NCBI RefSeq assembly: GCF_003751225.1
Contig: NZ_RJKE01000001.1
Coordinates: 4,712,001-4,776,000, forward strand
Origin: Actinocorallia herbida
Lineage (GTDB): Bacteria; Actinomycetota; Actinomycetes; Streptosporangiales; Streptosporangiaceae
Direction of reading: 5' to 3'
DNA length: 64,000 bases
The translations under genes and the position numbers were made by a program. Below, piece by piece: positions 11,045-38,962 of this stretch. Positions within the stretch are counted from its first letter, which is position 1, and every line of letters starts with the position of its first letter. Below the pieces are notes generated by a model. It made no database searches and was not told where the DNA came from. It was given only the letters and a program-made list of their open reading frames with translations.

Positions 11045-12640
11045 TCACAGGCCGAGCAGGCGCGCCGCGTCCTGGGCGCGCAGGACGCCGCACAGGTCGC
11101 GCAGCGCGGCGCCGGTGCGGGCGATCGCGGCGTCGGTGAGCCGCACCGACGGCTCGAAGCGCAGGGTGTGCACGGCGCTCGCGGTCGGGAAGATGCGGAT
11201 CGCGTGGGCGCGCATGAGGTATCCGGCGGCGAAATAGCCGAACATGTCGGCCTTCTCGCGGAGGGCCGGCGCGGCGGCCACGGACTGGTCGTGGAACTCG
11301 AGGCCGACCATCAGCCCTTTGCCGCGGACCTCCTTGACGACGTCCGGGAACTCGGCCTGGACGGCGCGGAGCTCCGTCATCAGGGCCTCACCCCTCGCCG
11401 TGGCCAGTCGGTAGGCCGCGCCGCCGTCCGTCTCCAGGAGGTCGATGACCTTTTCCGCGATCCGGGTGGAGAAGCCGTCCTTCGCGTAGGTCGAACTGTG
11501 GATGAGGTCGAAGTCCTGGCGGTAGCACGAGGCGCGCACCAGGGTCACCGCGGCCTTGGCGACGCCGCCCCCGAGGCTCTTGGCGAGGGTGTAGTAGTCG
11601 CCGCGCAGGCCGATCCCGGCGCTCGCGAAGAAGGACCCCGACCTGCCCATGCCGGACTGGACCTCGTCGATGACGATGGGGCAGCCGACCGCCGCGCAGA
11701 CCTGCTGGATGTGCCGCGCGGTCTCCTCGGTGAGGACGTTGATGCCCGCCTCCCCCTGGATCGGTTCCAGGACGAACGCACAGAAGACCGGCATGTCGCG
11801 TTCGACGACGCCGACGACTCCGGCGTCGAGGGTGAAGTCGAACACCGTCCTGCGTTCGCCCTCGACGATCCGGGCGAGTGCCTCGGGCCGGTCCGCCGGC
11901 ACGAATCGGCACTGCGCGGCGAGCGAACTGAACGGCAGCCGGAAGGACGGGTTGTGGGTGAGCTGGACGCTCCCGACGAGCTTCCCGTGGAAGGAGCCCT
12001 CCAGGGCGAGCAGGACGGGCGGGGCGGACAGGCTCTCGGCATTGGCCAGCTCGGCGGCCTTCAGCAGATGGTCCGCGTCATGGACGTCGACGCCGAGCAC
12101 CGCGAAGGCGTCGTCCGCGAGGACCGCGGTGCCCTCCACCAGCGCCGCCCTCGCGTTCTCACGGTTCTCGTGCAGCGCGCCGCACAGCTCGGCGAGCCTC
12201 GTCACCCTGTCGAGTTCGGCGTGCTTGAGCGCGATCTCGTTGGCCTCGGCGCCACTGTTGGCGAAGACCGCGAAGTAGGGTTCCGCCTCCCCCAGCTCGC
12301 GGGTCAGGATGCCGTTGAGCTTCCGGGCCACGGTGTCGGCGTACGGGTGCAGCGAGAACTGCGCGTACACCGGCAGCCGGGCGTCCAGGATCGCCTTGGC
12401 GTGCGCGACGACGTCGGGGTCGTTGTGGCCGAGGATCGTGGCCCCGAAGGCGCCCACCAGGTCGAGGACCGCGCGCTCCGCGCCCTGCTCGTCGCGGTGG
12501 TAGAGGGTGTCGCCCTCGGCCCGCACGTATTCGACGGAGAGACCCAGAACGGCCAGGGTCCGCGCCATGTACGGCTCGGCCAGGTGCGGTTCGGCCGGGA
12601 CGGGTTCGGCGGCGTGCTCAGCGATGACTGCGGATGACAT
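11045..12640 (-). CDS. Class III PLP aminotransferase, probable aldehyde-to-amine step
   Basis: 531 residues. Sequence: the PLP-phosphate region FANSGAEANE is near 127-136, EGSFHGK near 214, the Asp that binds the pyridine N in IVIDEVQSGMGRSG (about 323), and the Schiff-base Lys about 354 in TLAKSLGGG. About 50 extra residues sit between NSGAEANE and GSFHGK. Role: such omega-transaminases follow thioester reductase release in actinomycete polyketide-alkaloid pathways (for example coelimycin), turning the polyketide aldehyde into a primary amine. This role is inferred from context. Start: ATG 12640, with GGAG eight bases upstream. It is the last gene of the minus-strand cluster operon, 26 bases after the PKS that carries the loading ligase. 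Confidence 0.85.
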   Translation of the reverse strand: MSSAVIAEHAAEPVPAEPHLAEPYMARTLAVLGLSVEYVRAEGDTLYHRDEQGAERAVLDLVGAFGATILGHNDPDVVAHAKAILDARLPVYAQFSLHPYADTVARKLNGILTRELGEAEPYFAVFANSGAEANEIALKHAELDRVTRLAELCGALHENRENARAALVEGTAVLADDAFAVLGVDVHDADHLLKAAELANAESLSAPPVLLALEGSFHGKLVGSVQLTHNPSFRLPFSSLAAQCRFVPADRPEALARIVEGERRTVFDFTLDAGVVGVVERDMPVFCAFVLEPIQGEAGINVLTEETARHIQQVCAAVGCPIVIDEVQSGMGRSGSFFASAGIGLRGDYYTLAKSLGGGVAKAAVTLVRASCYRQDFDLIHSSTYAKDGFSTRIAEKVIDLLETDGGAAYRLATARGEALMTELRAVQAEFPDVVKEVRGKGLMVGLEFHDQSVAAAPALREKADMFGYFAAGYLMRAHAIRIFPTASAVHTLRFEPSVRLTDAAIARTGAALRDLCGVLRAQDAARLLGL

Positions 12641-12666
12641 GGGCGGAATCTCCTTCGCGAGGCGGT

Positions 12667-15600
12667 TCAGAGGCTGTGGTCGATGAACGCGAACAGTTCG
12701 TCGTCGGTCGCCGAGGCGAGGTCGGCGAGGTCCGCGGTCTCCCTTGCGGGAGCGTCGGGAACGTCGGAGATGCCGGGATCCGCGCCGAGGCGGTCGAGGA
12801 CCGCGTGCAGGCGCATCCCGAGCAGGCGGCGTTCCGCCTCGTCGGCGGGCGGCTCGGCGAGCGCCTTCTCCAGCCCGTCGAGCGCGGCGAGGCGAGCGGC
12901 GGCGGCCAGCCGCGCCCGCAGGTGGGCGGCGACGGCGGCGGGCGTCGGGTGGTCGAAGACCAGCGTCTCGGCGAGTTCCACCCCGGTCGCCTCGGCGAGG
13001 CGTTCGTGCAGTTCCAGCGCGGTGAGCGAGTCGATCCCCGCGCTCTCGAACGACTGCTCGGCCCCGATCCGCTCGGTGCCCTCCCGGCCGAGGATCGCGG
13101 TGGCCTCCGTGCGCACCAGGTGGAGGAGGTCGCCGGGCCGGGCCGCCGGTGCGGGCCGCGGCGGGACCGACGGGACCAGATCCCGGAGTGGCGACGGCAA
13201 CCGGCCCGCGTCGGCCTGACGGCGCAGGGCCGACGGGTCCAGCGCGATCGGCAGGAGCACGGCGTGCTCCCGGCTGTCTCGAGCCGGGGCCAGCGCGACG
13301 TCCAGCAGGCGCAGGCACTCCGCCCCGGTGACGGGGCGCAGGCCCGTGCGGGCGATGCGCTCCAGGTCGGCCGGCCCGAGCCGCCCGCCCATACCTCCTT
13401 CCACGTCCCATAGCCCCCACGCGAGCGACGTCGCGGGCAGGCCCGCGGCCCGGCGGAGGTGCGCGATCCCGTCGAGGAAGGCGTTGGCCGCGGCGTAGTT
13501 CGCCTGTCCCGCCGTGCCCAGCGCGCCCGCGACCGAGGAGAACAGGACGAAGGCGTCGAGGCGGAGACCTCGGGTGAGTTCGTCGAGCCAGACCGCCGCG
13601 TCGGCCTTGGCCCGGAAGACCCGGTCGACGCGGTCGGCGTCCATCGCCCCGACCGCCCCGTCGTCCAGGACGCCCGCGGTGTGGATCACCGCGGTCAGCG
13701 GCACGTCGTGCGGGACCCGGCGCAGCAGCGCCCGCACCTGCGCGCGGTCGGCGACGTCGCAGGCGGCGATCTCGACCCGGGCGCCCAACGCGCGCAGTTC
13801 CGCGCGGAGATCGGCCGCGCCCTCCGCGTCCTCGCCGCGGCGGGAGGCCAGCAGCAGGCTGCGCACCCCGTGCGCCGAGACGACGTGCCGGGCCGTCAGC
13901 CCGCCGAGCGCGCCGGTGCCCCCGGTGATCAGGACCGTGCCGTCGGGGGCGAGCCGCCCCGGACGGCGCATGTACTCCGTCCTGCGGAGCCGGGGAACCC
14001 AGACCGATCCGGCGCGGACCGCGAACTCCGGCTCGTCCGCCGAGCCCGCGGCGGCGAGCACGGCGGGCGGCGCCCCGGTGTCCCCGCCCAGATCGGCGAG
14101 CACGAACCGGCCGGGGTGCTCGCGCTGCGCCGCGCGCACCGCGCCCCAGACCGCGGACTCGGCCGGGTCGACCACGTCGCCGTCGGCGACGGCCACCGCG
14201 CACCGGGTCGCGACGATCAGGCGGCGGCCCTTGCCCCGGGGCTCCGCCAGGAACGCCCTGACCACGTCGAGGACCCGGCTGACCGCGCCCCGCGCCCGGA
14301 CCGGGTCCGCGGACGGCCCGCCTTCCCCGGGCATCAGCACGGGGAGCGCGCCTCCCTCGACCGCCGCGAGGTCCCGCGTCCCCGTCACCGCGGCCAGCCG
14401 AGGTCCGCCACCGGGCGTCCCGACCCGGCTCCAGGCGACGTGGAAGAGCGCCGGAGCCGCGCCCCGATCCGCGGCGCCGTCCGCACCGGACCCGGACCCG
14501 GACGCCCCGAGCACGTCGGCGGTGCCGCAGGAGGACGACGCGGCATGGTCGCCGTGCTCGACGACCTCCGCGGCGCCGTCGGCGACGGACGCGGATCCCG
14601 CGTCCTCGGCACTCCACCAGTACCGGCTCCGCTGGAACGGGTAGGTCGGCAGCGGCACCGTCCGGCCCCGGCCTTCCAGCACCGGCGCGAAGTCGCCCCC
14701 CGCGCCCGCAACGAACGCCTCCGCCAGCGCGCGGACGAACGGCCCCCCGTTCGCCGATCCGCACACGACCCCCGCGGCCCCCGACGCCGCCGGACCCGCG
14801 CCCATCTCGACGAACACGCCGAACCCCCTCGCGGCAAGCCCCCGAACCGCGGAACCGACCCCCTCCTCCGCCGCACCGAACCGGTACGACCCAGGGCCGC
14901 TCACCCAGTCCCCTTCCGCCGTGGAGTACCACGGCACCTCCGGAGCACTGATCAGGACCACGCCCAGCGCCTTCGTCTCCGCACCGGCGGGCACGGGGGC
15001 GCCGTGGGCGGCGGCCAGGCGGGCCGCGTCGGCCAGGGGGAGGGCGCCGGAGGCGCAGGCGGCGGCGAGTTCGCCGATGCCGGTGCCCAGGACGGCGTCA
15101 GGGTGGATGCCGTGTGAGCGCCAGAGGGCCGCCAGAGACAGCATCGTGGCGAAGGCCCTTGGACCTGCGGACTCCGGCAGGTGCCAGGCCGCCGCGTCGG
15201 TGGTGGCGGGGGCCGGGCGGGGCAGGTGGGGGGCCAGCGCGATGCGGCATTCGGCCATGCGGGCGGCGAACGCCGGTTCGGTCGACCATGCGGCGTCGGG
15301 TGCCGACGCCGTGGGCTGCGCCGGACCGGCGAAGACGAAGACGGTCCGGCCGGGAGCGCCGTGCGCCGGGCCGACCAGATGGGGGTCGTCCCGGCCCTCC
15401 GCGAGCGCGCGCAAACCGTCCAGGGCCTGTGCGCGGTCGCCCGCGACGACCACGGCCCGGTGCTCCCACCTGGTCCTGGCGGTCGCGGACCTGGCCAGGT
15501 CCGGGAGCCGGGCCCCGGCGTCGAGGGCCGCCGCGAACCGTCTCGCCTGCTCGGCCAGGGCGCGGGCCGACCGGGCCGACACCACGACCGGCACGGGACC

Positions 15601-18600
15601 GCCCTCGGCGGGTTCCGGCCGTGCCGCCTCCTGCGGGGCCTGTTCGAGGATCACGTGGGCGTTGGTGCCGCTGATGCCGAAGGACGACACGGCGGCGCGG
15701 CGGGGACGGCCCCGGTCGGGCCACCCGAGCCGCTCGGTCAGCAGCGCCAGCGAGCCCGCCGACCAGTCGATCTTCGACGAGGGAAGGTCGACGTGCAGCG
15801 TGCGGGGCAGGACGCCGCGGCCCAGGGCGAGCGCCATCTTGGCCACCCCGGCGACGCCGGCCGCGGCCTGGGTGTGGCCGACGTTCGACTTCAGCGATCC
15901 GAGCAGCAGCGGATCGCGGCGGTCCGCGCCATAGACGGCGAGGAGTGCTTCGGCCTCGATCGGATCGCCGAGGACGGTGCCGGTGCCGTGCGCCTCCACC
16001 GCGTCGACGTCGGCGGGCGACAGGCCGGCGTCGGCCAGCGCGCGGCGGATCACCCGCTGCTGGGAGGTGCCGTTCGGGGCGGTGAGCCCGTTCGACGCGC
16101 CGTCCTGGTTGACGGCCGAGCCCCGGACGAGCGCCAGCACGCGGTGGCCGTTCCGGCGGGCGTCGGACAGCCGCTCCAGGACCAGGACGCCCACGCCCTC
16201 ACTCCAGGACGTCCCGTCGGCCGCGTCGGCGAAGGACTTGCACCGGCCGTCCGCCGCGAGCCCGCGTTGCCGCGAGAACTCCACGAAGCCTTCGGGGCCC
16301 GCCATCACCGTCGCGCCTCCGGCCAGCGCCATCGTGCACTCGCCCGCCCGCAGGGCCCGGACGGCGAGGTGCAGGCCGACCAGGGACGACGAGCACGCGG
16401 TGTCGACGACCAGCGCCGGGCCGCGCAACCCGAGCACGTAGGCGACGCGGCCCGCGGCCATGCTCGTCAGGCCGCCCGTCGTGCGGTAGCCGGCCAGGTC
16501 CGCGCGGGCCGGAAGGCGGTCGGCGTACCCGTTGGCGAACAGGCCGAGGAAGACGCCCACCTCGCGGCCGCGCAGCGAGACCGGGTCGATCCCCGCGTGT
16601 TCCAGCGCCTCCCACGAGGTCTCCAGCAGCAGGCGCTGCTGCGGGTCCATCGCCAGGGCCTCGCGCGGCGAGATCTGGAAGAACTCCGCGTCGAACAGCG
16701 CGGCGTCGTGCAGGAAGCCGCCGTGCCGGGTGCACGAGCCGCCGGGCGAGCCGGATTCGTGGAGGGCGGCCAGGTCCCAGCCCCGGTCCGCCGGGAACGC
16801 CGAGATCGCGTCGCCCTCCCGCTCCAGCAGCTCCCACAGCGCCTCCGGGCCGGTCACCCCGCCCGGCAGCCGCACGCCCATCCCGACGATCGCGATCGGC
16901 TCCGCGGACTCGGCGGCGGCCGGATCGGGCCGGGGCGTCCCGCCCTGGAGCCGCGACTGCAAGTGCTCGACGACGGCGGCGGGCGTGGGGTGGTCGAAGA
17001 CGAGGGACGCGGGCAGCGCGATCCCCGTCGCCTCGCTCAGCCGGTCGCGGAGGTCGACCGCCGCGAGCGAGTCGACCCCGAGGTCGGCGAACGCCGCCCC
17101 GGAGCGCAGGCCGGGAGGGGTGTGCCCCAGCGCCGCGGTGGTCGCCGATGCCACGAGGTCTTCGAGCCGCCGTCCGGGCGGGACGGGGATCGTCGGCGGC
17201 CCGTCGGGCGGCAGGGCCCGCAGCGCCGGAAGATCGACCTTGCCCGTCGCGTTGCGCGGCAGCGCGGCGAGGAGGCGCAGTCGCACCGGCAGCTTGTAGG
17301 CGGCCAGCCGGGGGGCCGCGAAGGCGCGGACCTCGTCCAGCGTGGGCTCCGCCCCGTCGGACGGGACCGCGACCGCGACCACCACTTCGCCCCGCGTCCC
17401 ATGGGGCGCGCCGACGACCGCGACCTCCGCGAGACCCGGACACCCGGCCAGGACGCGCTCGACCTCGGCGGGGTAGACATTCTCACCGCCCGTGATGACC
17501 ATGTTCTTCCACCGGTCGACGAGGCGAAGGTGGCCGTCGGCGTCGATCTCGCCGATGTCTCCGCTGTGGAACCAGCCGTCGCCGAACGCCGCGGCGTCTG
17601 CGGCGGGATCACGCCAGTACCCCGGCGTGACGTTGGGGCCGAGCACGCAGACCTCGCCCCGCGCACCCGGCCCGTCGAGGACCGCGCGGGTGACCGGGTC
17701 GACCAGCCGGATCCGGGTGAACGGCAGGGCGGGGCCCGCCGACCCGGTCTTGCGCAGGGTCAGGTCCACCGGCAGGAGGGTCGCGAAGGGCGCGGTCTCG
17801 GTGAGCCCCCACGCCTGCCGGAGCAGCACGCCCCGTGCCGCGTAGTCCTCGATCAGCGCGCACGGCACGGGCGCGCCCGCCACGACCGCGGTGTGCAGCC
17901 CGGACAGGTCGGCGGCCGCGAAGCCCGGCGTCCGCGCGACCGCCGAGTACACCGAGGGCACCCCGAGGAGCGTGCCGACGCGGTGCTCGACCAGGTCCCG
18001 CAGGACCACGTCGGGATCGAACGTCCGGCGCAGGACCGTCGTCCCGCCGTGGGCCAGCGTGCGCAGAGTGAAGGAGCTCAGGCCGCCGATGTGGAACAGC
18101 GGGGTGACGACCAGGTTGACCTCGCGGCCCGTCGTGCCGGTCGCCCAGCCGACGTTCGCGCCGTTCCACCAGAGGTTCCCGTGGGTGAGCCGGACTCCCT
18201 TGGCCCGCCCCGTCGTGCCGGAGGTGTACAGCAGGACCGCAAGGTCGTCGGCCTTGCACGTCACGGGCTCCCGCGGCGGGCGGGCGGCCCCGGCCAGCGC
18301 GGTGCCGAGCGAGGTCCAGCACGGCCCCGGAGGGACGGCGGGACCCGTCGCGTGATCGTCGTCGACGAGCAGCAGGCGTGCCGCCGCGCGGACGGCCTCG
18401 ACCGCCGAGCGGTGTGCCGGCTCCACGAGAAGGGTGTGCGCGTCGCAGTCGGTGAGGACCTCCCCCAGCTCGTCCGGCCGCAGCATGGGGTTCACCGGGA
18501 CGAAGACCGCGCCCAGCCAGGCGCAGGCCAGGTATGCCGCCAGGAGGGTCGGGCTGTTGAGCCCGAGGTAGGCGACCCGGCAGCCCCGGGTCGCCCCGCC

Positions 18601-18747
18601 TTCGGCGAGCACTTCGGCGAGGCGCCCGGCGCGGTCCACGAGGTCCGGATAGCCGATCTCGGCGCCCTCGTACCGCAGCGCCGGGCCGGCGCAGGACCGG
18701 CCGGCCTGCCGCCGCACCGCCGCCACCGGACTGAGATCCACCCGCAT
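12667..18747 (-). CDS. PKS with loading acyl ligase-ACP and module KS-AT(inactive)-KR-ACP
   Basis: 2026 residues. Domains in order: acyl-AMP ligase (1-520; [34 protein letters not shown]), ACP (Ser about 557 in GVDSL), KS (615-1040; Cys in DTACSSS, His in EAHGTGT and [10 protein letters not shown]), AT remnant (about 1134-1367), KR (GGTGALGG about 1602; SSVAG; Tyr in GQANYAAAN about 1749; LDD, so B-type), ACP (GIDSL about 1903) and a C-terminal docking helix. Oddity: the AT has GTGIGE where GHSxGE is required, AGPAQ for PGQGSQ, and over 100 residues missing, so it cannot form the acyl-Ser intermediate. Start: ATG 18747 with GGAGG five bases upstream. A GTG at 18780 overlaps the previous stop but has no ribosome site. 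Likely role: cinnamate loading and first extension, with malonyl supplied in trans. Confidence 0.88.
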
Positions 18748-18776
18748 TCCCGCCTCCAAGGTCGTCATGTCGCAGG

Positions 18777-24700: not shown

Positions 24701-25142
24701 CCGCCGTGCCCCGCAACGCGGCCGGGTCGATCCGCGCGTGCTCGACGGCCTCCCAGGCGGTCTCCAGCAGCACCCGCTGCTGCGGGTCCATCGCGAGCGC
24801 CTCGCGCGGCGAGATGCCGAAGAACGCCGCGTCGAACTCCGTCGCGTGCTCGATGAAGCCGCCTTCACGGGTGTAGGACGTGCCGGGGGCGTCCGGGTCC
24901 GCGCTGTAGAGCGCGTCGAGGTCCCAGCCGCGGTCGGCCGGGAACCCGGTGACGGCGTCGCGGCCTTCGGCGACGAGCCGCCACAGGTCGTCGGCCGAGG
25001 CGACCCCGCCCGGGTAGCGGCACGCCATGCCGACGACGGCGATGGGCTCGGGCCGTTCGAGGTCGGCGATCCTGCCGCGTGCCTTGCGCAGTTCCGTCGT
25101 GACCGACCGCAGGTACTCGGTCAGCTTCTCGTCGTCGGCCAC
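18777..25142 (-). CDS. PKS terminal module KS-AT-DH(lesioned)-KR-ACP-thioester reductase
   Basis: 2121 residues. N-terminal docking coil ([19 protein letters not shown]), KS (Cys about 200), AT (GHSLGE about 643; CASH at the specificity site about 743), DH (about 910-1180), KR (GATGALGG about 1366; Tyr in GQANYAAAN about 1505; HDD, B-type), ACP (GFDSR about 1672, where Leu usually follows the Ser) and an NAD(P)H-dependent thioester reductase (about 1740-2100; [22 protein letters not shown]). Oddity: the DH has [12 protein letters not shown] where WLADHxxxGxxxLPG is expected, so the catalytic His is gone; the partner Asp remains in HPALLDAAL. Role: last extension, then reductive release as an aldehyde. 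Start: GTG 25142 with GAGG seven bases upstream. There is no thioesterase domain, which fits reductive release. Confidence 0.9.
23215..24088 (-). repeat. Near-identical DNA tracts shared with the neighbouring PKS gene (copy 1)
   Basis: Three tracts inside the KS-AT part match the gene at 25180-30465 almost perfectly. 23215-23496 matches 28517-28798 (282 bases, 2 differences). 23549-23639 matches 28851-28941 (91 bases, no difference). 23930-24088 matches 29238-29396 (159 bases, 1 difference). The flanking DNA is clearly diverged, which suggests recent gene conversion or recombination between modules rather than one simple recent duplication. Confidence 0.9.
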
Positions 25143-25179
25143 GTCGGTGCCTCGTCTCCTTCTGGGTGCGGTGCGGGCG

Positions 25180-30465: not shown

Positions 30466-30491
30466 GGGAATCTCGCCTCCGGTCCCGGTCT

Positions 30492-31412
30492 TCACCCGGC
30501 GCTGGGCTCCAGCGGCACCGGAGCCTTCCTGAACTGCTCGATGACGCGCGCGTAGCCGTCCTGGCCGTGGCCCTCGGCGACCGCCTTCTCGATGACCGCC
30601 CTGAGCCGCCTGGGCGGGTCCGCGTCCACCCCTCTGGCCAGGCTCTCGGCGAGGAGATGCCCGGCCGCCGGGAGGTGCGTCTCCAGCGTCGAGTCCTCGG
30701 CCGCGTAGGCGCCCTCGTCTATCTGCCGCGCGTAGCGGGCGACGAAAGAGGGCAGGCCGGCGAAGAGCAGATCGGCGAACGGTGCGAACTCCCCCGCCTT
30801 GACGTGCTCGGTGGCGACGAGCGCCGCCGCGTGCAGGAACCCGTTCAGGCTCGCCCACAGCATGTCCAGAAGGGCGAGGTCGTACAGCGCGGCGAGTCCC
30901 GGGTCGTCACCGAGGCGGGTGAGGCCGCCGCCGAGCGCGCGCAGCGTCGGGCGGTGCGCGTCGAACACCTCGCGCCGCCCCGCGTAGAGCACCGCGGTGT
31001 CGGGCGCGCCGACGGCGTCCGGGGTCGTCAGGAGCACCCCGTCGAGGTAGTCCGCGCCCCGGCCGGCCGCCCAGGCGGCGAGACCGCGGGCTTCGCTCGA
31101 CGTGCCGGAGGTGAGGTTCACCAGGGTCCGGCCGGCGAGCGCGTCGCCCGCGGGCTCGCAGGTCCGCAGCACCGCGTCGTTGCCGCTGAGGCAGACCACC
31201 GCGAGGCCGGCCGCCGAGAACGCCTCGGCGGGCGTGCCGGCCGGCCGGGCGCCCAGCGCGACGAGCGGGCCGGCCTTCTCGCGCGAGCGGTTCCAGACGG
31301 TGGTCGGGTGGCCGCGCCTGATGAACGCCCTGGCCAGCGCGGACCCCATCAGGCCGAGGCCGAGGACCGCGACCGGCCGCCGGTCGTGCGCCGCCGCGAC
31401 GGGATCAGGCAT
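30492..31412 (-). CDS. Imine reductase (6PGDH-like NAD-binding/IRED family)
   Basis: 306 residues, the usual IRED length. Sequence: Rossmann motif [15 protein letters not shown] (15-30); [10 protein letters not shown], whose basic residues after strand 2 (Arg42, Arg44) suggest NADPH; the IRED-type block [20 protein letters not shown] (121-140); and the interdomain/dimer helix [20 protein letters not shown] (177-196). Asp178 there lies about where imine reductases carry the catalytic Asp or Tyr. Role in the family: NADPH reduction of cyclic imines to secondary amines. Context: it overlaps the upstream methyltransferase by 8 bases and precedes the PKS genes by 26, so it is co-transcribed with them. 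It probably reduces the cyclic imine formed after transamination. A beta-hydroxyacid dehydrogenase role is less likely given the IRED signatures. Confidence 0.85.
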
Positions 31413-32424
31413 GGTCGGCGGCGGGTTCGAGCTCGAACATCACGCCGCCGGGAGGGGCGGTCACGTCGTGGGCGGCGACACAGCGCCAGCCGGACGCGGC
31501 GAACGCGCCGAGCCATTCGTCCCTGGTCGGGAGGTAGACGCCCATCAGGGCGTGGACCAGCTCGAATCCGAGCGTGAAGATGGGGGTGTCCGGGCCGGGC
31601 GTCCGGGTGGTGCGCGCGACGTCGCACAGCAGGAAGCGGCCCGCGTTGGGGAATGCCCCGCGCAGCCCGCGCAGGGTCCGGACGCATCGGTCGTAGGGCC
31701 AGAAGTCGTGCCCCATGAACGAGCAGGTGATCACGTCGACGTCCGCGCCGCCGGGGATCGCGGGCAGATCGAGGACGTCGGCCCGGCAGACCGTGATCCG
31801 GTCGGCCAGCCCCGCGTCCGCGATGGACCTCCCGGCGAGCTCGACCGCGGCGGGCGCGATGTCCACCCCGATCCCCCGGACGCCCGGACGGTGCTCGGCG
31901 ACGCGCATCAGCCGCCGGCCGGACCCGCAGCCCAGGTCGGCCAGGGTGCCGAAGGCCCGCTCGGCCAGCAACGCGTCGTACAGGCCCTCGACCGCGGTGT
32001 CGCCGATCAGATGCGAGCCGACCGCGACCGCCCGCATGTCGCGGCGGTAGAAGACGCCGTCGCGCTCTGTGTGCCGGGCCACCCGGGGCGCCTCGCTGAA
32101 CAGGGCGCCGCAGCCGCGCACCATCCAGTAGAAGTAGCCGCGGGCCGCGTACGCGTCGGCGAAGCCGGGACCCGGGAAGGCGACCCCGTCCTCAAGTCGC
32201 ACGACGTCACCCCAGACGAGGCCGTTCAGCAGGCGCTCGACCACCACCGGATCGAGTTCCCGGTCGGCGTCGAGGCGGTAGGAGCCGTCGGCGGCGAGGC
32301 GGTCGAGGATCCCGAGTTCGTGGGCCGCGGAGAGCGCGACCGCGACGACGTAGGACGAGAAGTGCCCTGCCGCGGGTCCCCGCACGAAGGAGTCCGGGAG
32401 GGTGGGCTGAACTGTGGCGGTCAT
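31405..32424 (-). CDS. Class I SAM methyltransferase with N-terminal dimerisation domain
   Basis: 339 residues. Sequence: a helical winged-helix-like N-terminus (about 20-120; SSYVVAVALSAAHELGILDR, LLNGLVWGDVVRL) as in O-methyltransferases. The SAM-binding motif is LADLGCGSGRRLMRVAE (about 165), then GIGVDIAPAAVELA, CRADVLDLPAI and ITCSFMGHDFWPYD. Role: methylation of a hydroxyl or amine of the polyketide alkaloid (inferred from operon position). Start: ATG 32424, five bases after GAGGA. A strong hairpin lies just upstream, so this gene may begin its own transcript. Its stop overlaps the imine reductase start by 8 bases, suggesting translational coupling. N- versus O-methylation cannot be told. 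Confidence 0.8.
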   Translation of the reverse strand: MTATVQPTLPDSFVRGPAAGHFSSYVVAVALSAAHELGILDRLAADGSYRLDADRELDPVVVERLLNGLVWGDVVRLEDGVAFPGPGFADAYAARGYFYWMVRGCGALFSEAPRVARHTERDGVFYRRDMRAVAVGSHLIGDTAVEGLYDALLAERAFGTLADLGCGSGRRLMRVAEHRPGVRGIGVDIAPAAVELAGRSIADAGLADRITVCRADVLDLPAIPGGADVDVITCSFMGHDFWPYDRCVRTLRGLRGAFPNAGRFLLCDVARTTRTPGPDTPIFTLGFELVHALMGVYLPTRDEWLGAFAASGWRCVAAHDVTAPPGGVMFELEPAADHA

Positions 32425-32469
32425 GCGGGTCCTCTGCTCGGTGGTCGCGTGCCGTGGCACCCGTGCGGC

Positions 32470-32516
32470 GGGCATGGCGCGGATCGGCCGTGCGGCACGC
32501 GGTCCGCGCCATGCCC
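32470..32516 (-). terminator. Strong hairpin between the EF-hand and methyltransferase genes
   Basis: GGGCATGGCGCGGA (32470-32483) and TCCGCGCCATGCCC (32503-32516) are perfect 14-bp arms with a 19-base loop, beginning 10 bases past the EF-hand stop. It probably terminates or attenuates the transcript, dividing the minus-strand cluster into an upstream SDR/ammonia-lyase/EF-hand unit and a downstream methyltransferase-to-aminotransferase unit. Confidence 0.7.
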
Positions 32517-32525
32517 CGTGCGGGA

Positions 32526-33071
32526 TCAGGCGAAGATCGCCTGGAGGCTCTCGCCGTGCGTGTCCTGCGCGTCGGCCCGGTAGAAGCTCTCCCAGGCGCG
32601 GCGGTACTCGTTCAGCGAGATGTAGCCGTCGCCGTCGGTGTCCAGGCCGTGGAAGGCCGTCGCCGCCTGCTGCCCGGACGCGCCCCGGACGACCAGCACG
32701 CGCTGGAGCTCATCGTGGGAGATGGTGCCGTCGTCGTCGGCGTCGATCGCCTGGAACTCCGCCTGGCCCACGACGTCGATGGCCCTGCGGACCGAGTGCT
32801 CGCCTTCGTCGGGGTCGGCGATCCGGGAGAGGAACTCCTGGCGGGTCACCCGCCCGTCGCCGTCGAGGTCGGCCGCGTCGCTGAGGGCCTCCCAGCCCTT
32901 GCGGTAGGCGTCGTGCAGAGCCCGGGCCTTCGGCGAGTTCGGGGCCGTGCCGGTGGCGGCGAGGATGTGCTGCGCCAGGGCCTCGAAGTCCTCCCGCCCG
33001 ATGGCGCCGGAGCCGTCGGTGTCCAGGAAGTCGAAGATGCGGTCGAACCGCTGGCGCTGGGTGTCGTTCAT
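32526..33071 (-). CDS. EF-hand calcium-binding protein (calerythrin-like)
   Basis: 181 residues with four EF-hand loops: DTDGSGAIGRED (ends in Asp instead of Glu), DLDGDGRVTRQE, DADDDGTISHDE and DTDGDGYISLNE. The last three have a full set of calcium ligands. No signal peptide, so it should act in the cytoplasm. Family knowledge: calerythrin and related sarcoplasmic-type proteins of actinomycetes buffer or sense calcium; targets are mostly unknown. Start: ATG 33071 with GGGAG ten bases upstream; the longer frame back to 33266 runs into the ammonia-lyase gene. Context: it lies inside the biosynthetic cluster between the ammonia-lyase and methyltransferase genes, with 103 bases upstream carrying hairpins and a possible promoter. 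A role in the pathway is not evident. Confidence 0.88.
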   Translation of the reverse strand: MNDTQRQRFDRIFDFLDTDGSGAIGREDFEALAQHILAATGTAPNSPKARALHDAYRKGWEALSDAADLDGDGRVTRQEFLSRIADPDEGEHSVRRAIDVVGQAEFQAIDADDDGTISHDELQRVLVVRGASGQQAATAFHGLDTDGDGYISLNEYRRAWESFYRADAQDTHGESLQAIFA

Positions 33072-33090
33072 GGGGTGTGGATCTCCCTCG

Positions 33091-33178
33091 CGGCCTCCGT
33101 AGAGGCCGATCGACGTTGGCCGGTCGGACGCCGACCACGGACAGTGATCATGTAACAACCGTGCGCTGTAATTCTCAA
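33091..33178 (-). promoter_or_regulatory. Tandem hairpins and possible promoter upstream of the EF-hand gene
   Basis: CGGCCTC/GAGGCCG (33091-33108, 4-base loop) and GGTCGG/CCGACC (33122-33136, 3-base loop) stand in the 103-base gap. A weak -35/-10 pair on the minus strand, TTGAGA (33178-33173) and TTACAT 17 bases on, begins at the ammonia-lyase stop. The outer hairpin may end that transcript; the inner one would lie in the EF-hand leader. Confidence 0.35.
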
Positions 33179-34758
33179 GCACCTGATGGCACGGCGCACG
33201 GCGCGCCGCGCCAGGGCGCCCGCGCCGCGGCGAGCCTGTCGAGCAGGTCCCCGGCCCTCCGGACATCGGCGTCGAGCGGCCGGTCCGGGTCGATCGGCGT
33301 GACCGCCGCGCTCAGCTCGTGCAGCACCGCCGCGCACGCGGGCGCGGTGACCCCGCGCGGGCTGAGATATCCGGCCTGCCGCAGCGCGACCCCGAGCGCG
33401 CCCTGCACCCAGCGCAGCTGCCCCGCCTGGTCCAGCGCGGTGAGGGCCGCCTGGGTCCCGAGCGGCACCACGTCCTGGTTGTGCCCGTTGGTGGGCAGGC
33501 TCTGGTTGGAGACGGGCACCGCCGCGCGGCGCATGGCCGCGACCGTCGCGGTCGCCGAGATCTGCATGCCGACCACCCCGTGCTGACGACCCGGCTCCGT
33601 CGCCAGCATCGGCGGCAGACCGCTGTTGCGGTGGGTGTCGGTGAGCAGGTCGAGCTGACGTTCCGCGAGGTTGGCGAGCTGGGCGGCGACCGTGGACATC
33701 GTGTCCGCGGCGAAGGCCACCGGCTGGCTGAAGAAGTTGCCGCCGTGCGTGACGACCTCGTCCTCGGCGAAGAACAGCGGGTTGTCGTTGATCCCGTTGA
33801 GGTCGTCGCCGATGACCGTCGCGGCGTAGTGCAGCGCGCTCGCCGAGGCGCCGATGAGCTGCGGGCTGCACCGGATGCTGTACGGCTCCTGGAGCGGGCG
33901 TGTGCCGGTCGGCACGGTCCCCTTCAGCAGGGCGCGCAGCCCCGCGGCGACGTCCTCGCCCTGCGGGTGGCCGAACGCCGCGAGGGTGGGCGCCGCGGCG
34001 AAGCCCGGGTCGCTGCCGAGCAGGTCGGCCAGCAGCGCGGTGAGGGTGACCGCGGTGTTCACCGAGCGGGCCAGGCTCGCCAGGGCGAGGCCCGCCGCGG
34101 CGGCCGTCACGGAGGTCCCGTTGACCAGCGCCACCGCGTCACGGCCGGCCAGGTGCAGCGGGCTGAGCCCGCAGCGGTCCAGCGCCTCGGCGGCGGGCAT
34201 GCGCGCGCCGTCCACGTAGGCGTGGCCCTGTCCCTGCATCGCGCGCACCGCGTAGGCGAGCGGGATGAGGTCGCCGCTCGCCCCGACCGAGCCCATCCGG
34301 GGCACGGCCGGGGCGAACGAGGTCTCCAGGACGGCGGTGAGCGTCCGCAGCGCGGACGGGGACACCGCGGAACGCCCCTTGGCGAGCGACCACACGCGGG
34401 CCAGGAGGGTCGCCCGCATGACCTCCGGCGGGAGGTCCGGGCCGTGCCCCGCGGTCAGGAAGTCGAGAAAGCCCTCGCTCTGCTCGTGCGCCGTGGCGCG
34501 TCCGGCGAAACCGACCAGGTTGCCGAACCCCGTCGTCACCCCGTAGATGTCCTGCCCCCGCTCGACGCACGCCAGCATGAAGGCGTGCCCCGCGGCCACG
34601 CCCCCGGCCGCGTCGTCGGCGATCGCCACGCGCACCGGACCGCGCGCGGCGAGCTCCAGTTCCGCGGTCGTCAATCTGCCCGGTACCGGCAGTACCGCCA
34701 CGCCGCTCCTGTCCTCCCGGCTTTCCGGCCTGCCTTCGAGCACTTCCTGATGCGTCAC
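33175..34758 (-). CDS. MIO-dependent aromatic amino acid ammonia-lyase, probably phenylalanine ammonia-lyase
   Basis: 527 residues, the bacterial HAL/PAL length. Sequence: the self-cyclising Ala-Ser-Gly at 160-162 (GSVGASGDLIPLAY), the base Tyr72 in IYGVTTGFGN, LVNGTS in DAVALVNGTSVTA, QEPYSIRC, and the C-terminal NQD in TNGHNQDVV. The pair Phe100-Leu101 (GFLDFLTAGHG) falls where cyanobacterial PAL has Phe-Leu and tyrosine ammonia-lyases have His-Leu, so phenylalanine is the likely substrate and cinnamate the product. An aminomutase giving beta-phenylalanine cannot be excluded. Start: GTG 34758 with GAGGAGG four bases upstream; an upstream ATG at 34830 has no such site. Context: the only obvious source of an aromatic acid starter for the ligase-loaded PKS. 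Confidence 0.85.
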   Translation of the reverse strand: MTHQEVLEGRPESREDRSGVAVLPVPGRLTTAELELAARGPVRVAIADDAAGGVAAGHAFMLACVERGQDIYGVTTGFGNLVGFAGRATAHEQSEGFLDFLTAGHGPDLPPEVMRATLLARVWSLAKGRSAVSPSALRTLTAVLETSFAPAVPRMGSVGASGDLIPLAYAVRAMQGQGHAYVDGARMPAAEALDRCGLSPLHLAGRDAVALVNGTSVTAAAAGLALASLARSVNTAVTLTALLADLLGSDPGFAAAPTLAAFGHPQGEDVAAGLRALLKGTVPTGTRPLQEPYSIRCSPQLIGASASALHYAATVIGDDLNGINDNPLFFAEDEVVTHGGNFFSQPVAFAADTMSTVAAQLANLAERQLDLLTDTHRNSGLPPMLATEPGRQHGVVGMQISATATVAAMRRAAVPVSNQSLPTNGHNQDVVPLGTQAALTALDQAGQLRWVQGALGVALRQAGYLSPRGVTAPACAAVLHELSAAVTPIDPDRPLDADVRRAGDLLDRLAAARAPWRGAPCAVPSGA

Positions 34759-34869
34759 GCCGCCTCCTCGTCCGTATGCCGGACTCGACTGCACCACATC
34801 AAGATCATCTGGGCGGTCAAACACAGGCATGAGGCGCGCCCGTTTCCGCTCCGGTCGCGCCCCGCGGCG

Positions 34870-35715
34870 TCAGGCGTCGCCGACCGGTGTGCGGCCGCCG
34901 AGCGAGGCGAGCATCGCGCGGAGGCCGGGACCGGCGAGATCGACGCTCCATCCGCCGTCCACCGCGAGGCACTGCCCGGTGACGTAGGAGGAGGCGTCGG
35001 AGGCCAGGAAGACCGCGGCTCCCGCGATGTCGTCCGGGTCGGCCCAGCGGCCCGCGGGGACGGACGCCACCGCGAGGTCGAAGCCCGCGGGGTCGCTGCT
35101 GACCGCGTGCGTCTTGGCGGTGTGCGTCCACCCGGGGGCCAGCGCGTTGACCCGCACGCCGTGCGGCGCCCACTCGATCGCCAGCGCCTGGGAGAGGGAG
35201 ATCAGCGCGGCCTTGCTGACCGCGTAACTCGCCGCGAACGGCATGCCCCCCAGGCCCATGATCGAGGCGATGTTGACGACCGATCCCGCGCCCTTGGCCC
35301 GCAGGTGCGGCGCGGCGGCCCGGCAGGCCGCGACCGCGCCGCCGACGTTCACCCCCATCGTGGCCGCCCAGTCGTCCTCGTCCAGCTGGGTGAACGGCCC
35401 GACGCAGCGCATGACGCCCGCGTTGTTGACCAGCACGTCGAGGCCGCCCAGGGCGTCCACCGCGGTCTCCACCATCGCCTCGATCTGCACGCTGTCGGAC
35501 ACGTCGCAGCCGACCACGACGGCGCTCCGGCCGAGGCCCTCGATCTCCCCGGCCACCCGCTTGAGCGCGTCCAGGTCCCGCGCGGCGAGCGCCACGTCGG
35601 CCCCCGCCTCGGCGAACGCCACCGCGACGGCCCGCCCGATGCCCCGCGAGGCGCCCGTGACGAGCGCCGCCTTCCCCACGAGCCCGAACCGCTCCAGCAC
35701 TGTGCCACCGCTCAT
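34870..35715 (-). CDS. SDR-family oxidoreductase
   Basis: 281 residues. Sequence: TGASRGIG cofactor motif, NNAG in LVNNAGVMRCVGP, Ser in VNIASIMGLGG, Tyr-Lys in YAVSKAALISLSQ, and the tail LASDASSYVTGQCLAVDGGW. The segment after strand 2 (AARDLDALKR) has Arg, favouring NADP(H). Start: ATG 35715 with GGAGGGG six bases upstream; longer in-frame starts run into the divergent promoter region. It is the first gene of the minus-strand cluster, 111 bases before the ammonia-lyase. Role: probably oxidises or reduces a hydroxyl or ketone of the product, or a starter-unit precursor. Substrate unknown. Confidence 0.82.
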   Translation of the reverse strand: MSGGTVLERFGLVGKAALVTGASRGIGRAVAVAFAEAGADVALAARDLDALKRVAGEIEGLGRSAVVVGCDVSDSVQIEAMVETAVDALGGLDVLVNNAGVMRCVGPFTQLDEDDWAATMGVNVGGAVAACRAAAPHLRAKGAGSVVNIASIMGLGGMPFAASYAVSKAALISLSQALAIEWAPHGVRVNALAPGWTHTAKTHAVSSDPAGFDLAVASVPAGRWADPDDIAGAAVFLASDASSYVTGQCLAVDGGWSVDLAGPGLRAMLASLGGRTPVGDA

Positions 35716-35960
35716 CAGAAACCCCTCCAGAAGGCCGACGCCGACTCCCATGATCACGATCAGCGTAGGAACGGATCCGTGGGGCCGCGGGGCTCGGCGC
35801 GCCGCACCGCACCTCCAGGTCGCACGGCATTTCCAAGAAATGACAAAAGCGAGCGGATGCGCTGCCGGAAGGTGCGAGTGGGCCGGTATCGGTATCCCCA
35901 TCCCGCCGGAGAGGGCAGACGCCCGCCGGGCGAGCCCCGTGGCGACTGGAGGAGAGCCGG
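35716..35960. promoter_or_regulatory. Divergent control region of the cluster
   Basis: 245 bases between the two divergent arms of the biosynthetic cluster. A perfect palindrome, CATTTC-CAA-GAAATG, lies at 35828-35842, and a tandem GGTATC follows at 35886-35897. No gene fits here. The palindrome is the best candidate for a pathway regulator site; the regulator is not in the cluster. Confidence 0.5.
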
Positions 35961-36965
35961 ATGACCCTGCGAGATGTCGCGTCCGAGGTGGCCGAGCACT
36001 ACACGAGGTTCCCCTTTCCGCTCCCGGACTCCGCCCGCCCGGCGAGCGGCATGGAGGCGGTCAAAGGGCTCGTCGGGTTCCATGGGCTCGACCTGTCGGG
36101 CGGGCGGATCCTCGACGCGGGATGCGGCACGGGGAACCGGCTCCTGGGCCTCGCCGCGGAGTTCCCCGACGCGAAGATCACCGGGATCGACCTCGCGCCC
36201 GGACCGCTCGACCTCGCCCGCCGGTACCTCGCCGAGACGGGCCTCACGAACGCCACGGTCAGGCAGGGCGATCTCAGCACGGTCCCCCTCGACGGGCCGT
36301 TCGACCTCATCTGGTGCTGCGGGGTGCTCCACCACATCCCCGACCCGCTCCCGGCCCTGGCCAACCTGCGGTCGGCGCTCGCGGACACCGGGCTGCTGAT
36401 CCTGTGGCTCTACGGCACCATCGGCACGCTCAACGAGCAGCTCACCAGAGAACTCGTCCTGACGCTGGGCCGCGAGGTGCCCCACGACCGGCGGCTCGAC
36501 CTCGCCAAGCGGGTCTGCCCGAACCTCAACGAGAACTGGTACGGCGACGAGCGGCATGACTTCGGCGACCTCTCGTCCGCCGCGTACGACTCCATCCTCG
36601 CCGACGCGCTCCTGACCCCGTACGCGCGCGGCTACCGGCTGGCGGAGATGATCGAGCTGCTGCGGCAGGGCGGTTTCCGGCACGTGCAGCTCGCCGGGCT
36701 GTCCCTCGCCGACGGCACGCTCGCGTCCTTCGAGCTGGACGGGCTCGATGACCTCCCCGGCTTCGACGTCGGCGACCACAACGACGACGCTCAGGTCGTC
36801 GACCTGTACCGGGAGCTGCCCCTGCAGCAGCGCTGGCAGGCCGCCGAGCTGATGGCCCGGCCCATGGGCCTGCTCATGCTGGCGTGGGCGCCGGGCGCCT
36901 ACGACCGGCTCGCCCCCGAGCACCGGCGCCGTGTGCTCACGATCGAAGAGGTGAAGCCATGCTGA
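35961..36965 (+). CDS. Class I SAM-dependent methyltransferase
   Basis: 334 residues. Sequence: SAM-binding motif I in ILDAGCGTGNRLLGLAAE (about 50-66), ITGIDLAPGPLDLARRYL, RQGDLSTVPLDGPFDLIWC and GVLHHIPDP (motif post-I and II). The C-terminal ~170 residues are longer than in a minimal methyltransferase and include DLAKRVCPNLNENWYGDERH. Start: ATG 35961 with GGAGGAGA six bases upstream, an excellent ribosome site. Context: first gene of the plus-strand arm. Its stop overlaps the carbamoyltransferase start by 7 bases, so the two are translationally coupled and probably act on the same scaffold. Acceptor atom unknown. Confidence 0.8.
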   Translation: MTLRDVASEVAEHYTRFPFPLPDSARPASGMEAVKGLVGFHGLDLSGGRILDAGCGTGNRLLGLAAEFPDAKITGIDLAPGPLDLARRYLAETGLTNATVRQGDLSTVPLDGPFDLIWCCGVLHHIPDPLPALANLRSALADTGLLILWLYGTIGTLNEQLTRELVLTLGREVPHDRRLDLAKRVCPNLNENWYGDERHDFGDLSSAAYDSILADALLTPYARGYRLAEMIELLRQGGFRHVQLAGLSLADGTLASFELDGLDDLPGFDVGDHNDDAQVVDLYRELPLQQRWQAAELMARPMGLLMLAWAPGAYDRLAPEHRRRVLTIEEVKPC

Positions 36966-38962
36966 CGCTCGGTCTCAGCGGAAATTTCTCGCCGGAAGAC
37001 AGCGATCTCGTTCCCGGGCTCCACTGGGGTGAGTTCCACGACTCCGCGGCCTGCCTGATCGAGGACGGCGTCCTCCTGGCGGCCGTGGAGGAGGAGCGGT
37101 TCAACCGGATCAAGAAGACGACGAAGTTTCCGGCGCACGCCATTCGCGCCTGCCTGGAGACGGCCGGCCGTTCGATCGCGGAAGTCGACGCGGTCGGCTA
37201 CTACTTCACCGAGGAGTTCGTCGACGACTCGCTGAACCACCTCTACCTCCAGAACCCGCAGGTTCCCGCGGTCTATGCGCGGCAGCTGATCGGCGGATGG
37301 TTCGAGGCGGAGTACGGCGAAAGGCTCTCCCGCGAAAGGCTGCACTTCGCGCCGCACCACGCCACCCATGGCATGTCCGCCTATGCCCGCTCCGGCCTGG
37401 CCGAGGCCCTCGTCGTCGTCGTGGACGGCCAGGGTGAGGAAGAGTGCATCACCGTCTACTTCGGCAAGGACGGCCGGCTGAAGTCCCTGGCCACGTACCC
37501 GTCGTCCAAGTCGCTGGGGTATCTGTACCTGTTCGGCACCATGCAGCTCGGCTATGGCTTCGGCGACGAGTACAAGGTCATGGGGCTCGCCCCCTACGGC
37601 CGGCCCGAGGTCTACCGCGAGGTCTTCGCCTCGCTGTACACGCTGGGCGCCGAAGGCGACTACGACCTCCGGCCCAGCGGCCCCGGCCAGGGCGCGCTGG
37701 CACCGGTGCTCCTCGCCCAAGGCGTGCCGCCCAGGCGCAGCGGAGAGCCGATCACCCAGGCCCACATGGACCTGGCGGCCGGGCTCCAGGAGACGCTGGA
37801 GACCATCGTCCTGCACGTGCTGCGGCACTGGGCGGACGCGACAGGGGTGCGCGCGGCGGTCCTCAGCGGCGGCGTGGCCCACAACTCGAGTCTCAACGGC
37901 CGGATCCTCCGGTCCGGGCTGTTCGACGAGGTCTACGTCCACCCCGCCTCTCATGACGCCGGGTCGGCCGAGGGCGCGGCGCTCTTCGCGGAGCAGACGC
38001 TGACCGGGGCCCCGCTGCCGAAGCGGCGGCTGCGCACCGCCGACTTCGGCCCCGCCCTGGGCACGCCCGACGAGATCGAGCGCAGGCTCGAGGCGTGGGG
38101 CGGCTGCGTCGACGTCGAGCGATGCGACGACGTCGTCGCCCGCGCGGCCCGGCTGCTCGCCGACGGCGCCGTTCTCGGATGGGCCCAGGGCCGATCCGAA
38201 TTCGGCCCGAGGGCACTGGGTCATCGCAGCATCCTGGCGGACCCCCGGCCCGCCGGAAACCAGACGAGGATCAATTCGATGATCAAGAACCGGGAGTCCT
38301 ATCGCCCCTTCGCCCCCGTCGTCACGGCCGAGGACGCGCACACCTACTTCGACATCCCGGAAACGGCGGCCGACCACGAGTTCATGTCCTTCGTGACGCC
38401 CGTGCGGGAGGAGCGAAGGGAAGAACTCGGGGCCGTGACCCACGTCGATGGAACGGCACGGCTGCAAGTGGTGGACGCGGAGATCGGCGGAAGGTACTAC
38501 CGGCTGGTGGCCGAATTCGGCGCGCTCACCGGAACACCGGTCCTGCTCAACACCTCGTTCAACAACAACGCCGAACCCATCGTCCAGGACATCGACGACG
38601 TCCTGACCTGCTACCTCACCACCGACCTCGACTACGTCGTCATCGAGGACTTCCTCATCCGGCGCAGGTCCACCCCCACCGCCATCGACACCCTGGCCCT
38701 CCGGTTCCGCCCGACGACCCGCCTCGTCGAACGCAGGGCACCGGGGCAGGGGACCGGGAACCCCGTCGTCCACGAGATCTCCCTGGACTACATCGACGGT
38801 CCGAGCATGACCCTCTCTTCCGAGCTGTACGACCTTCTCAAGCGGGTGACCGAACCCGTCCCGCTGTCGGCCTTCGCAGCCGACCTGACAGCCGATCTCC
38901 GAGCCGAACTCCACAGACTCTGGCAGGCCCGCCTGATCACCCTGCGCCCACCGGCCCCCTGA
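36959..38962 (+). CDS. O-carbamoyltransferase, TobZ/NodU/CmcH family
   Basis: 667 residues. Role in the family: carbamoyl phosphate plus ATP gives carbamoyl-AMP, then transfer of the carbamoyl group to a hydroxyl of a natural product. Sequence: the N-terminal Kae1/YrdC-type half contains GEFHDSAACLIEDGVLLAA, VEEERFNRIKK and the metal-binding His run APHHATHGMSAY, then GYGFGDEYKVMGLAPYG. The second half has QGRSEFGPRALGHRSILADP, SMIKNRESYRPFAPVV and LLNTSFNNNAEPIV. About 80 residues after the usual end (RRRSTPTAID onward) form an extension without a match I recognise. Start: ATG 36959 overlapping the methyltransferase stop. In this cluster it probably carbamoylates a hydroxyl of the alkaloid. 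Confidence 0.88.
   Translation: MLTLGLSGNFSPEDSDLVPGLHWGEFHDSAACLIEDGVLLAAVEEERFNRIKKTTKFPAHAIRACLETAGRSIAEVDAVGYYFTEEFVDDSLNHLYLQNPQVPAVYARQLIGGWFEAEYGERLSRERLHFAPHHATHGMSAYARSGLAEALVVVVDGQGEEECITVYFGKDGRLKSLATYPSSKSLGYLYLFGTMQLGYGFGDEYKVMGLAPYGRPEVYREVFASLYTLGAEGDYDLRPSGPGQGALAPVLLAQGVPPRRSGEPITQAHMDLAAGLQETLETIVLHVLRHWADATGVRAAVLSGGVAHNSSLNGRILRSGLFDEVYVHPASHDAGSAEGAALFAEQTLTGAPLPKRRLRTADFGPALGTPDEIERRLEAWGGCVDVERCDDVVARAARLLADGAVLGWAQGRSEFGPRALGHRSILADPRPAGNQTRINSMIKNRESYRPFAPVVTAEDAHTYFDIPETAADHEFMSFVTPVREERREELGAVTHVDGTARLQVVDAEIGGRYYRLVAEFGALTGTPVLLNTSFNNNAEPIVQDIDDVLTCYLTTDLDYVVIEDFLIRRRSTPTAIDTLALRFRPTTRLVERRAPGQGTGNPVVHEISLDYIDGPSMTLSSELYDLLKRVTEPVPLSAFAADLTADLRAELHRLWQARLITLRPPAP

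Follow-up and report, generated by a model that had tools for sequence, protein, structure and literature searches.

In a window of 64,000 nucleotides from the 9.80-Mb single-contig genome of Actinocorallia herbida (contig NZ_RJKE01000001.1, positions 4,712,001 to 4,776,000), we delimited a type I polyketide synthase (PKS) alkaloid cluster of 12 genes (window positions 10181-38962) by profile searches and by comparison with Actinocorallia sp. API 0066 (genome G002). The cluster is real, conserved and coherent, and its domain content makes it somewhat probable that its product is a 4-hydroxypiperidine, substituted at C2 and carbamoylated, whose side chain derives from a beta-methylcinnamoyl unit. 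All enzymes listed in the initial annotation of this region were recovered by profile search of the window proteins: the phenylalanine ammonia-lyase (PAL)-like ammonia-lyase, a PKS starting with an acyl ligase, a PKS ending in a thioester reductase, the aminotransferase, the imine reductase, two methyltransferases, a short-chain dehydrogenase and the carbamoyltransferase. The block outlined there (11045-38962) had the correct right end and genes, but its left edge has to be moved outward to include SDR2 (10181-11023), and its gene list, correct as given, lacked a third PKS lying in between (25180-30465; KS-AT-DH-KR-ACP) and a conserved EF-hand gene in the operon. The genes, with the protein identity to their counterparts in API 0066, are as follows:

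10181..11023, plus strand: SDR2, short-chain dehydrogenase at the cluster edge (PF13561 2.3e-65; 85%, adjacent in API 0066)
11045..12652, minus strand: AMT, class III aminotransferase, CrmG-like (PF00202 7.7e-53; CrmG in PDB 1.5e-147, residues 20-533 of 535; 81%)
12667..18780, minus strand: PKS-A, acyl-CoA ligase-ACP-KS1-AT1 (dead remnant)-KR1-ACP1, putative loading and module 1 (profiles; ligase by PF and PDB match; 76%)
18777..25142, minus strand: PKS-C, docking-KS3-AT3-DH3 (no His)-KR3-ACP3-thioester reductase, putative module 3 and release (profiles; 81%)
25180..30465, minus strand: PKS-B, docking-KS2-AT2-DH2 (no Asp)-KR2 (Tyr to His)-ACP2, putative module 2 (profiles; start placed at the docking domain; KS-AT 80%)
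30492..31412, minus strand: IRED, imine reductase (PF21761 2.8e-44; R-imine reductase 3zgy 9.8e-88, the second-best PDB match; 83%)
31405..32475, minus strand: MT1, MppJ-type alpha-keto acid C-methyltransferase (MppJ 4kib 9.3e-73; 87%)
32526..33071 (about), minus strand: EF-hand calcium-binding protein (EF-hand models; 66%; open reading frame to 33266, start taken at an internal Met)
33175..34830, minus strand: PAL-type MIO ammonia-lyase, F-L pair, Val at the PcPAL-256 position (PF00221 1e-120; 88%)
34870..35715, minus strand: SDR1, short-chain dehydrogenase (PF13561 2.8e-68; 86% from residue 60; open reading frame to 35901, start by homology)
35961..36965, plus strand: MT2, class I SAM methyltransferase (PF13649 1.8e-20; 79%; PDB matches no better than 1e-15)
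36884..38962, plus strand: CT, O-carbamoyltransferase, GdmN/NovN-like (PF16861 1.2e-65; NovN 9s2t 1.5e-246, GdmN 7vx0 5.2e-239; 78%)

API 0066 carries all 12 genes in identical order, with 66-88% protein identity, and the 11 other window genes included in the search gave no match at E 1e-20 in the 60-kb stretch of API 0066 used for comparison (genes further out being left aside); the unit is therefore 10181-38962, and its conservation argues strongly against a chance adjacency of the 12 genes. The neighbours rejected as members by the same search include a thioesterase, an EthD-like gene, an aromatic-ring hydroxylase and an MFS transporter on the left, and an nSTAND-WD40 protein on the right. 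Ten flanking proteins of API 0066 yielded only two SDRs (one being the SDR2 orthologue) and one DM13 protein. As read, the minus strand carries SDR1, lyase, EF-hand protein, MT1, imine reductase, PKS-B, PKS-C, PKS-A and aminotransferase, with SDR2 at the left edge and MT2 and CT at the right on the plus strand. In the third of the three genomes compared for the genus (G001), a search at E 1e-150 gives no hit for the lyase, and the closest imine reductase found at this cut-off reaches only 50% identity. Using two seven-residue MT1 patterns, we scanned one genome per species (84,980 species), a search that may miss relatives and possibly omits the window's own record; it identified 17 loci encoding an MT1 relative, and among these, the API 0066 locus alone also matches the lyase, imine reductase, KS or thioester reductase. 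At E 1e-10, nothing in the available flanks of the 16 other loci matched the lyase, imine reductase, aminotransferase, KS or reductase; these flanks gave weaker hits to the SDRs and the ligase and a single partial hit to the carbamoyltransferase.

The subunit order of the assembly line is A-B-C, because the loading ligase occurs in PKS-A alone and the release domain in PKS-C alone, and the docking-type termini, inspected by eye, are consistent with this order. The ligase domain has the feruloyl-CoA synthetase 8wev as its nearest PDB match, and aryl/acyl-CoA ligases match it best. We compared the catalytic residues of KR and DH domains across related PKS loci (20 KR and 19 DH rows). The catalytic Tyr is kept in 18 of the 20 KR rows and is replaced by His in KR2; the DH Asp is kept in 16 of 19 rows, DH2 being among the three without it; and the DH His is kept in 14 of 19, the DH3 domains of both species being among the five without it. 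The PKS-B orthologue of API 0066 has only 1101 residues (KS-AT-ACP), with DH and KR gone and its own ACP kept. Because KR2 has His in place of Tyr, DH2 lacks its Asp and module 2 of API 0066 has no DH-KR, both species should leave a ketone at C5, the site where the C1 amine would close a six-membered imine; a ring-closing ketone, as found in reductase-aminotransferase alkaloid clusters, is thus indicated by the residues and by the absence of DH-KR in API 0066. In module 3, KR3 is intact, DH3 lacks its His in both species and DH3 has the highest dN/dS, and a C3 hydroxyl without an alkene is therefore predicted. The 4-hydroxypiperidine core given in the initial annotation holds, but not through the literal domain reading from which it was said to follow: read literally, modules 2 and 3 would both give alkenes and no ketone, an outcome ruled out by the residues and by API 0066. 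The proposed structure needs a dead KR2 and two dead DH domains, and this is what the residues and the API 0066 cluster indicate.

AT1 lacks the Ser of GHSxG in both species and, at 238 and 234 residues versus 336, falls about 100 short of AT2. With AT1 dead, module 1 either depends on charging in trans or fails to extend. In the comparison of the two species (17 domain comparisons), dN/dS was highest in DH3 (0.55) and second highest in AT1 (0.43, some linker being part of the range compared), a pattern that lends support to, without proving, decay of DH3 and AT1. In KS1, KR1 and ACP1 the residues needed for catalysis are present (judged by eye), with dN/dS values of 0.25, 0.27 and 0.31. AT2 (27841-28788) and AT3 share 85.7% and 86.3% identity within the two genomes, versus 81.4% and 82.3% between orthologues, whereas the pattern is inverted for KS2 and KS3 (74% and 73% within genomes, 91% and 90% between orthologues), and for this reason the AT domains have probably been gene-converted within each genome.

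PKS-C ends in a thioester reductase (TIGR01746, 306 bits against a cut-off of 213) with YRQSK as its YxxxK motif, and the cluster thus has the type I PKS with C-terminal thioester reductase of reductase-aminotransferase polyketide alkaloid clusters. A KS-AT-ACP loading module, common in such clusters and perhaps not defining, is replaced by the acyl-CoA ligase. The clustered class III aminotransferase is a further shared component, judged here from the CrmG match and the loci of AMT relatives. At E 1e-100, AMT relatives occur in 10 of 394 genomes of the class (the window genome included) and in 8 of 341 genomes of the family (the window genome and API 0066 included). Stretches of 20-40 kb were taken around the relatives in 14 of the 15 genomes outside the genus (all but G522; for G592, only one of two copies was included): 11 of the 14 contain type I PKS domains, three a thioester reductase and one an imine reductase, and none has a counterpart of the lyase or MT1. 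We propose that AMT aminates the released aldehyde. For argimycin P, two papers describe a reductase, the aminotransferase ArpN, piperideine closure and the imine reductase ArpDHII acting in succession, with imine reduction by ArpDHII demonstrated by bioconversion, and state the same release logic for coelimycin and cyclizidine (PMC5820336, PMC5300972). The formation of an amine by thioester reductase and aminotransferase, cited as known in the initial annotation, agrees with these accounts. The mechanism of ring formation is thus already known, and starter, size and tailoring appear to be what differs here.

MT1 is the gene that changes the predicted starter. Its best PDB matches are MppJ structures (9e-73; 4kib 9.3e-73), the next family following at 7e-17, and its segments SFMGHDFW and ELVHALMG align to FMMGHDFW and EFGHDMMG of MppJ. 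MT1 belongs by this match to the MppJ family, and both metal-ligand His (H243 and H295 in MppJ) are kept, as are an Asp, a Trp and an Arg at MppJ positions, which we take to be active-site residues. In the related SgvM the metal ligands are given as H244 and H296 (PMC10502145). MppJ is described as methylating the benzylic carbon of phenylpyruvate (PMC6117699, PMC11496134), after which the promiscuous TyrB gives beta-methylphenylalanine (PMC11496134). MT1 is therefore most likely to work on phenylpyruvate ahead of the PKS and, together with the lyase Val described below in the same operon, points to beta-methylcinnamate as the starter acid, that is, to a beta-methylcinnamoyl rather than a cinnamoyl starter. 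The initial annotation had placed methylation and/or carbamoylation after the core; carbamoylation fits the GdmN/NovN-like CT, but methylation by MT1 more likely comes first. A role of MT1 as an end-stage O- or N-methyltransferase is less likely, its closest solved relatives being MppJ variants and its metal site being kept. Three of the MT1-relative loci are partly annotated: among the proteins tested, L032 and L038 contain nonribosomal peptide synthetase domains, L035 (two proteins) does not. The window genome encodes a second MppJ-like methyltransferase, 65% identical to MT1 (L084:9584-10591; genome 400562-401587), which lies near FMN-dependent dehydrogenase and ABC transporter genes; the dehydrogenase would fit an alpha-keto acid as substrate.

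The lyase is a member of the MIO-lyase family (PF00221 1e-120; MIO motif GASGDL with ASG). In both species its selectivity pair is F-L, the Phe aligning with F of the variant 2o78 and with H of 2o6y (2o78 is the tyrosine-lyase variant H89F, with RsTAL H89 as the selectivity position); a Phe-type residue thus occupies this position and disfavours a tyrosine lyase, whereas among the first 13 homologues compared 12 had H-L and one was HAL-like. Four positions ahead of the Asn in the invariant NGT motif, both cluster lyases carry Val, and all 49 other readable rows carry Leu (51 of 65 rows were readable, two being the cluster lyases, and 31 of the 49 others are HAL-like; 14 of the 20 less HAL-like PF00221 stretches gave no frame with the motif filter, and a looser filter recovered none). 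We equated this position with L256 of parsley PAL (PcPAL) by taking PcPAL N260, on our assumption, as the Asn of NGT. Neither the curated PAL model nor the histidine-lyase (HAL) models recognise the lyase at cut-off, and it is accordingly filed neither as canonical PAL nor as canonical HAL. According to one paper, N260 and L256 of parsley PAL are neighbours of the beta-methyl group, PALs do not accept beta-methylcinnamate without engineering, and three of 27 PcPAL mutants screened gave product, L256V the most (24.3%, and 49.1% with I460V added) (PMC11427684). The cluster enzyme is PAL-type and looks adapted to a methylated amino acid. At E 1e-140 it matches 23 of 341 genomes of the family (the window genome and API 0066 included). 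A second MIO lyase of the window genome (L002; genome 2343329-2344789) has the tyrosine-type H-L pair and is 56% identical.

The pathway we propose would start with benzylic methylation of phenylpyruvate by MT1, conversion to beta-methylphenylalanine by an unlinked aromatic aminotransferase and elimination of ammonia by the PAL-type lyase to give beta-methylcinnamate, which the ligase domain of PKS-A would activate and load onto the first ACP. Module 1, with ACP1 charged by another AT, would add a C2 unit and reduce it (C7-OH), module 2 would extend without reduction (C5 ketone), and module 3 would extend and reduce (C3-OH). The thioester reductase would then release an aldehyde, AMT would aminate it, the amine would close on the C5 ketone to form the six-membered imine, and IRED would reduce the imine; finally, CT would carbamoylate a hydroxyl, and MT2 and the SDRs would act in tailoring. 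The predicted core is C16H23NO2 and the predicted product the carbamate of 2-(2-hydroxy-4-phenylpent-3-enyl)piperidin-4-ol (C17H24N2O3, [M+H]+ 305.1860); with one further methyl, [M+H]+ 319.2016 is predicted. The aromatic-primed cyclic amine suggested in the initial annotation is thus supported with respect to PAL-type primer, ligase loading, release, transamination and imine reduction, but the revised starter would give a core with one CH2 more than the C15H21NO2 then given. The main uncertainties concern extension by module 1, extender identity, the roles of MT2 and the SDRs, and which hydroxyl is carbamoylated. A fuller reading, which we hold only tentatively, is that a natural beta-methylphenylalanine ammonia-lyase feeds beta-methylcinnamoyl to a three-module PKS, whose AT-less module 1 is charged by its neighbours, yielding a new carbamoylated phenylpentenyl 4-hydroxypiperidine, and that the lyase arose perhaps from a tyrosine-type ancestor via H-to-F and L-to-V changes paralleling two laboratory switches.

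Several observations weigh against this scheme. With regard to the starter, no aromatic aminotransferase for beta-methylphenylpyruvate is present in the cluster; the cluster lyases have Ile at the I460 position (aligned by eye), so the second helpful PcPAL change is absent; the F-L pair is not unique, since L115, another lyase among the 51 readable rows, shares it (with Leu at 256); Val at the 256 position also occurs in the PDB lyase 7tqr; and the NCBIfam HAL models (342.5 and 332.9 bits) score higher than the PAL model TIGR01226 (203.7 bits, cut-off 519), all below cut-off. A plain cinnamoyl starter, made by PAL activity on Phe with MT1 acting elsewhere, would suit the F-L pair, the ligase nearest to feruloyl-CoA synthetase, the unclustered aminotransferase and a lyase with one only of the two PcPAL changes; the core would be 4-hydroxy-2-(2-hydroxy-4-phenylbut-3-enyl)piperidine (C15H21NO2; carbamate [M+H]+ 291.1703). 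We regard this as unlikely, because it leaves an MppJ-type operon gene with an intact metal site without an alpha-keto acid substrate and the Val at the 256 position unexplained. Malonyl specificity of AT2 and AT3 is an assumption, as both show a non-standard signature (GGGAQ, TLA[SA]T, CASH): in both species CASH and GGGAQ occur in AT2 and AT3 and in none of 25 other AT domains compared (motifs were located by text patterns, which in a few of the 25 missed one of the motifs). This would fit a non-malonyl extender (e.g., methylmalonyl), giving C-methylated ring carbons and combinable with any of the other readings, yet the AT nearest in sequence among solved structures (6iyo) has an AFHS stretch, a malonyl-type AT signature, and GHSLG lacks the Gln that marks methylmalonyl-type ATs; we consider such an extender rather improbable.

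Further points on the same side are that three extensions are not guaranteed with AT1 dead, that the dN/dS of the thioester reductase and KR3 (0.38) is close to that of AT1, that the missing DH His is by itself a weak sign, as five of the 19 DH rows lack it, and that SDR1, SDR2, MT2 and the EF-hand protein have no place in the scheme beyond putative tailoring by MT2 and the SDRs. If module 1 were silent and modules 2 and 3 extended, the C5 ketone would derive from the starter carboxyl and the product would be 2-(2-phenylprop-1-enyl)-4-hydroxypiperidine (C14H19NO; carbamate C15H20N2O2, [M+H]+ 261.1598); the lost Ser, the roughly 100 missing residues and the second-highest dN/dS of AT1 (linker included) speak for this, but KR1 would be left without a substrate and the catalytic residues and low dN/dS values of KS1, KR1 and ACP1 speak for a working module, which makes silence quite improbable. 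It is very improbable that the lyase acts as an aminomutase and supplies a beta-amino acid of the beta-phenylalanine type for loading, which would leave a second nitrogen in the product: MIO lyases and mutases are close and a tyrosine aminomutase figures among the best PDB hits, but the ligase domain best matches aryl/acyl-CoA ligases and the NCBIfam mutase models stay far under cut-off (262.6 of 501; 252.7 of 800).

The cluster shares with those of argimycin P, coelimycin P1, streptazone and cyclizidine a type I PKS with thioester reductase, a class III aminotransferase, a six-membered cyclic imine (predicted here) and an imine reductase (for argimycin, PMC5820336 and PMC5300972). The argimycin line is described as having a loading domain and five extension modules using malonyl units (PMC5300972), versus three modules here, one without a working AT; for cyclizidine, an acetyl starter and seven modules are given (PMC11278551), versus an aryl acid from a lyase loaded by an acyl-CoA ligase. 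The carbamoyl- and MppJ-type methyltransferases are additions relative to argimycin-type clusters. MppJ (mannopeptimycin) and JomM (jomthonic acid) are of the same family as MT1, with the MppJ metal-ligand His positions and a likely phenylpyruvate substrate, but beta-methylphenylalanine is kept there as an amino acid residue, whereas here it is seemingly deaminated to an acrylate starter. The cluster lyase shares the MIO motif and F-L pair with PAL and Val at 256 with the engineered PcPAL L256V, but it is natural, leaves the I460 position unchanged and falls short of the curated PAL model. AMT has near full-length homology to CrmG of caerulomycin (1.5e-147), whose substrate we take to be a bipyridine aldehyde, whereas type I PKS domains lie near AMT relatives in 11 of 14 fetched loci. 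CT, in which both domains are present over nearly the full length, is homologous in the same way to GdmN and NovN, whose known acceptors are an ansamycin and a sugar; the acceptor of CT would be the piperidinol or a side-chain alcohol.

No known cluster with this gene set and no known product was recognised in literature searches covering open-access PMC papers. A phenylpentenyl-piperidine carbamate may already have been described some decades ago from an actinomycete; in that case the cluster could be the one for that compound, and its chemical novelty would fall. The release, amination and imine logic is known; the starter and the putative methyl-adapted lyase appear unusual. If the proposal is true, the lyase is a natural enzyme acting on aromatic amino acids branched at the beta carbon, modular PKSs can be primed in a new way, by a branched aryl acrylate, and the predicted exact mass makes the small alkaloid a sharply testable target. 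The sister clusters represent a natural experiment, with a dead DH-KR kept in one and none in the other for a presumably identical core.

The EF-hand gene lies in the biosynthetic operon between the lyase and MT1 and is kept in API 0066. Beside the cluster, at 39381-43895, an nSTAND1 NTPase with WD40 repeats (1504 residues) is encoded, which is unmatched in the API 0066 stretch. Further to the right, an RHS-repeat protein of 2649 residues (48189-56138) has a C-terminal CDI-type nuclease-like domain and is likely a contact-dependent polymorphic toxin.

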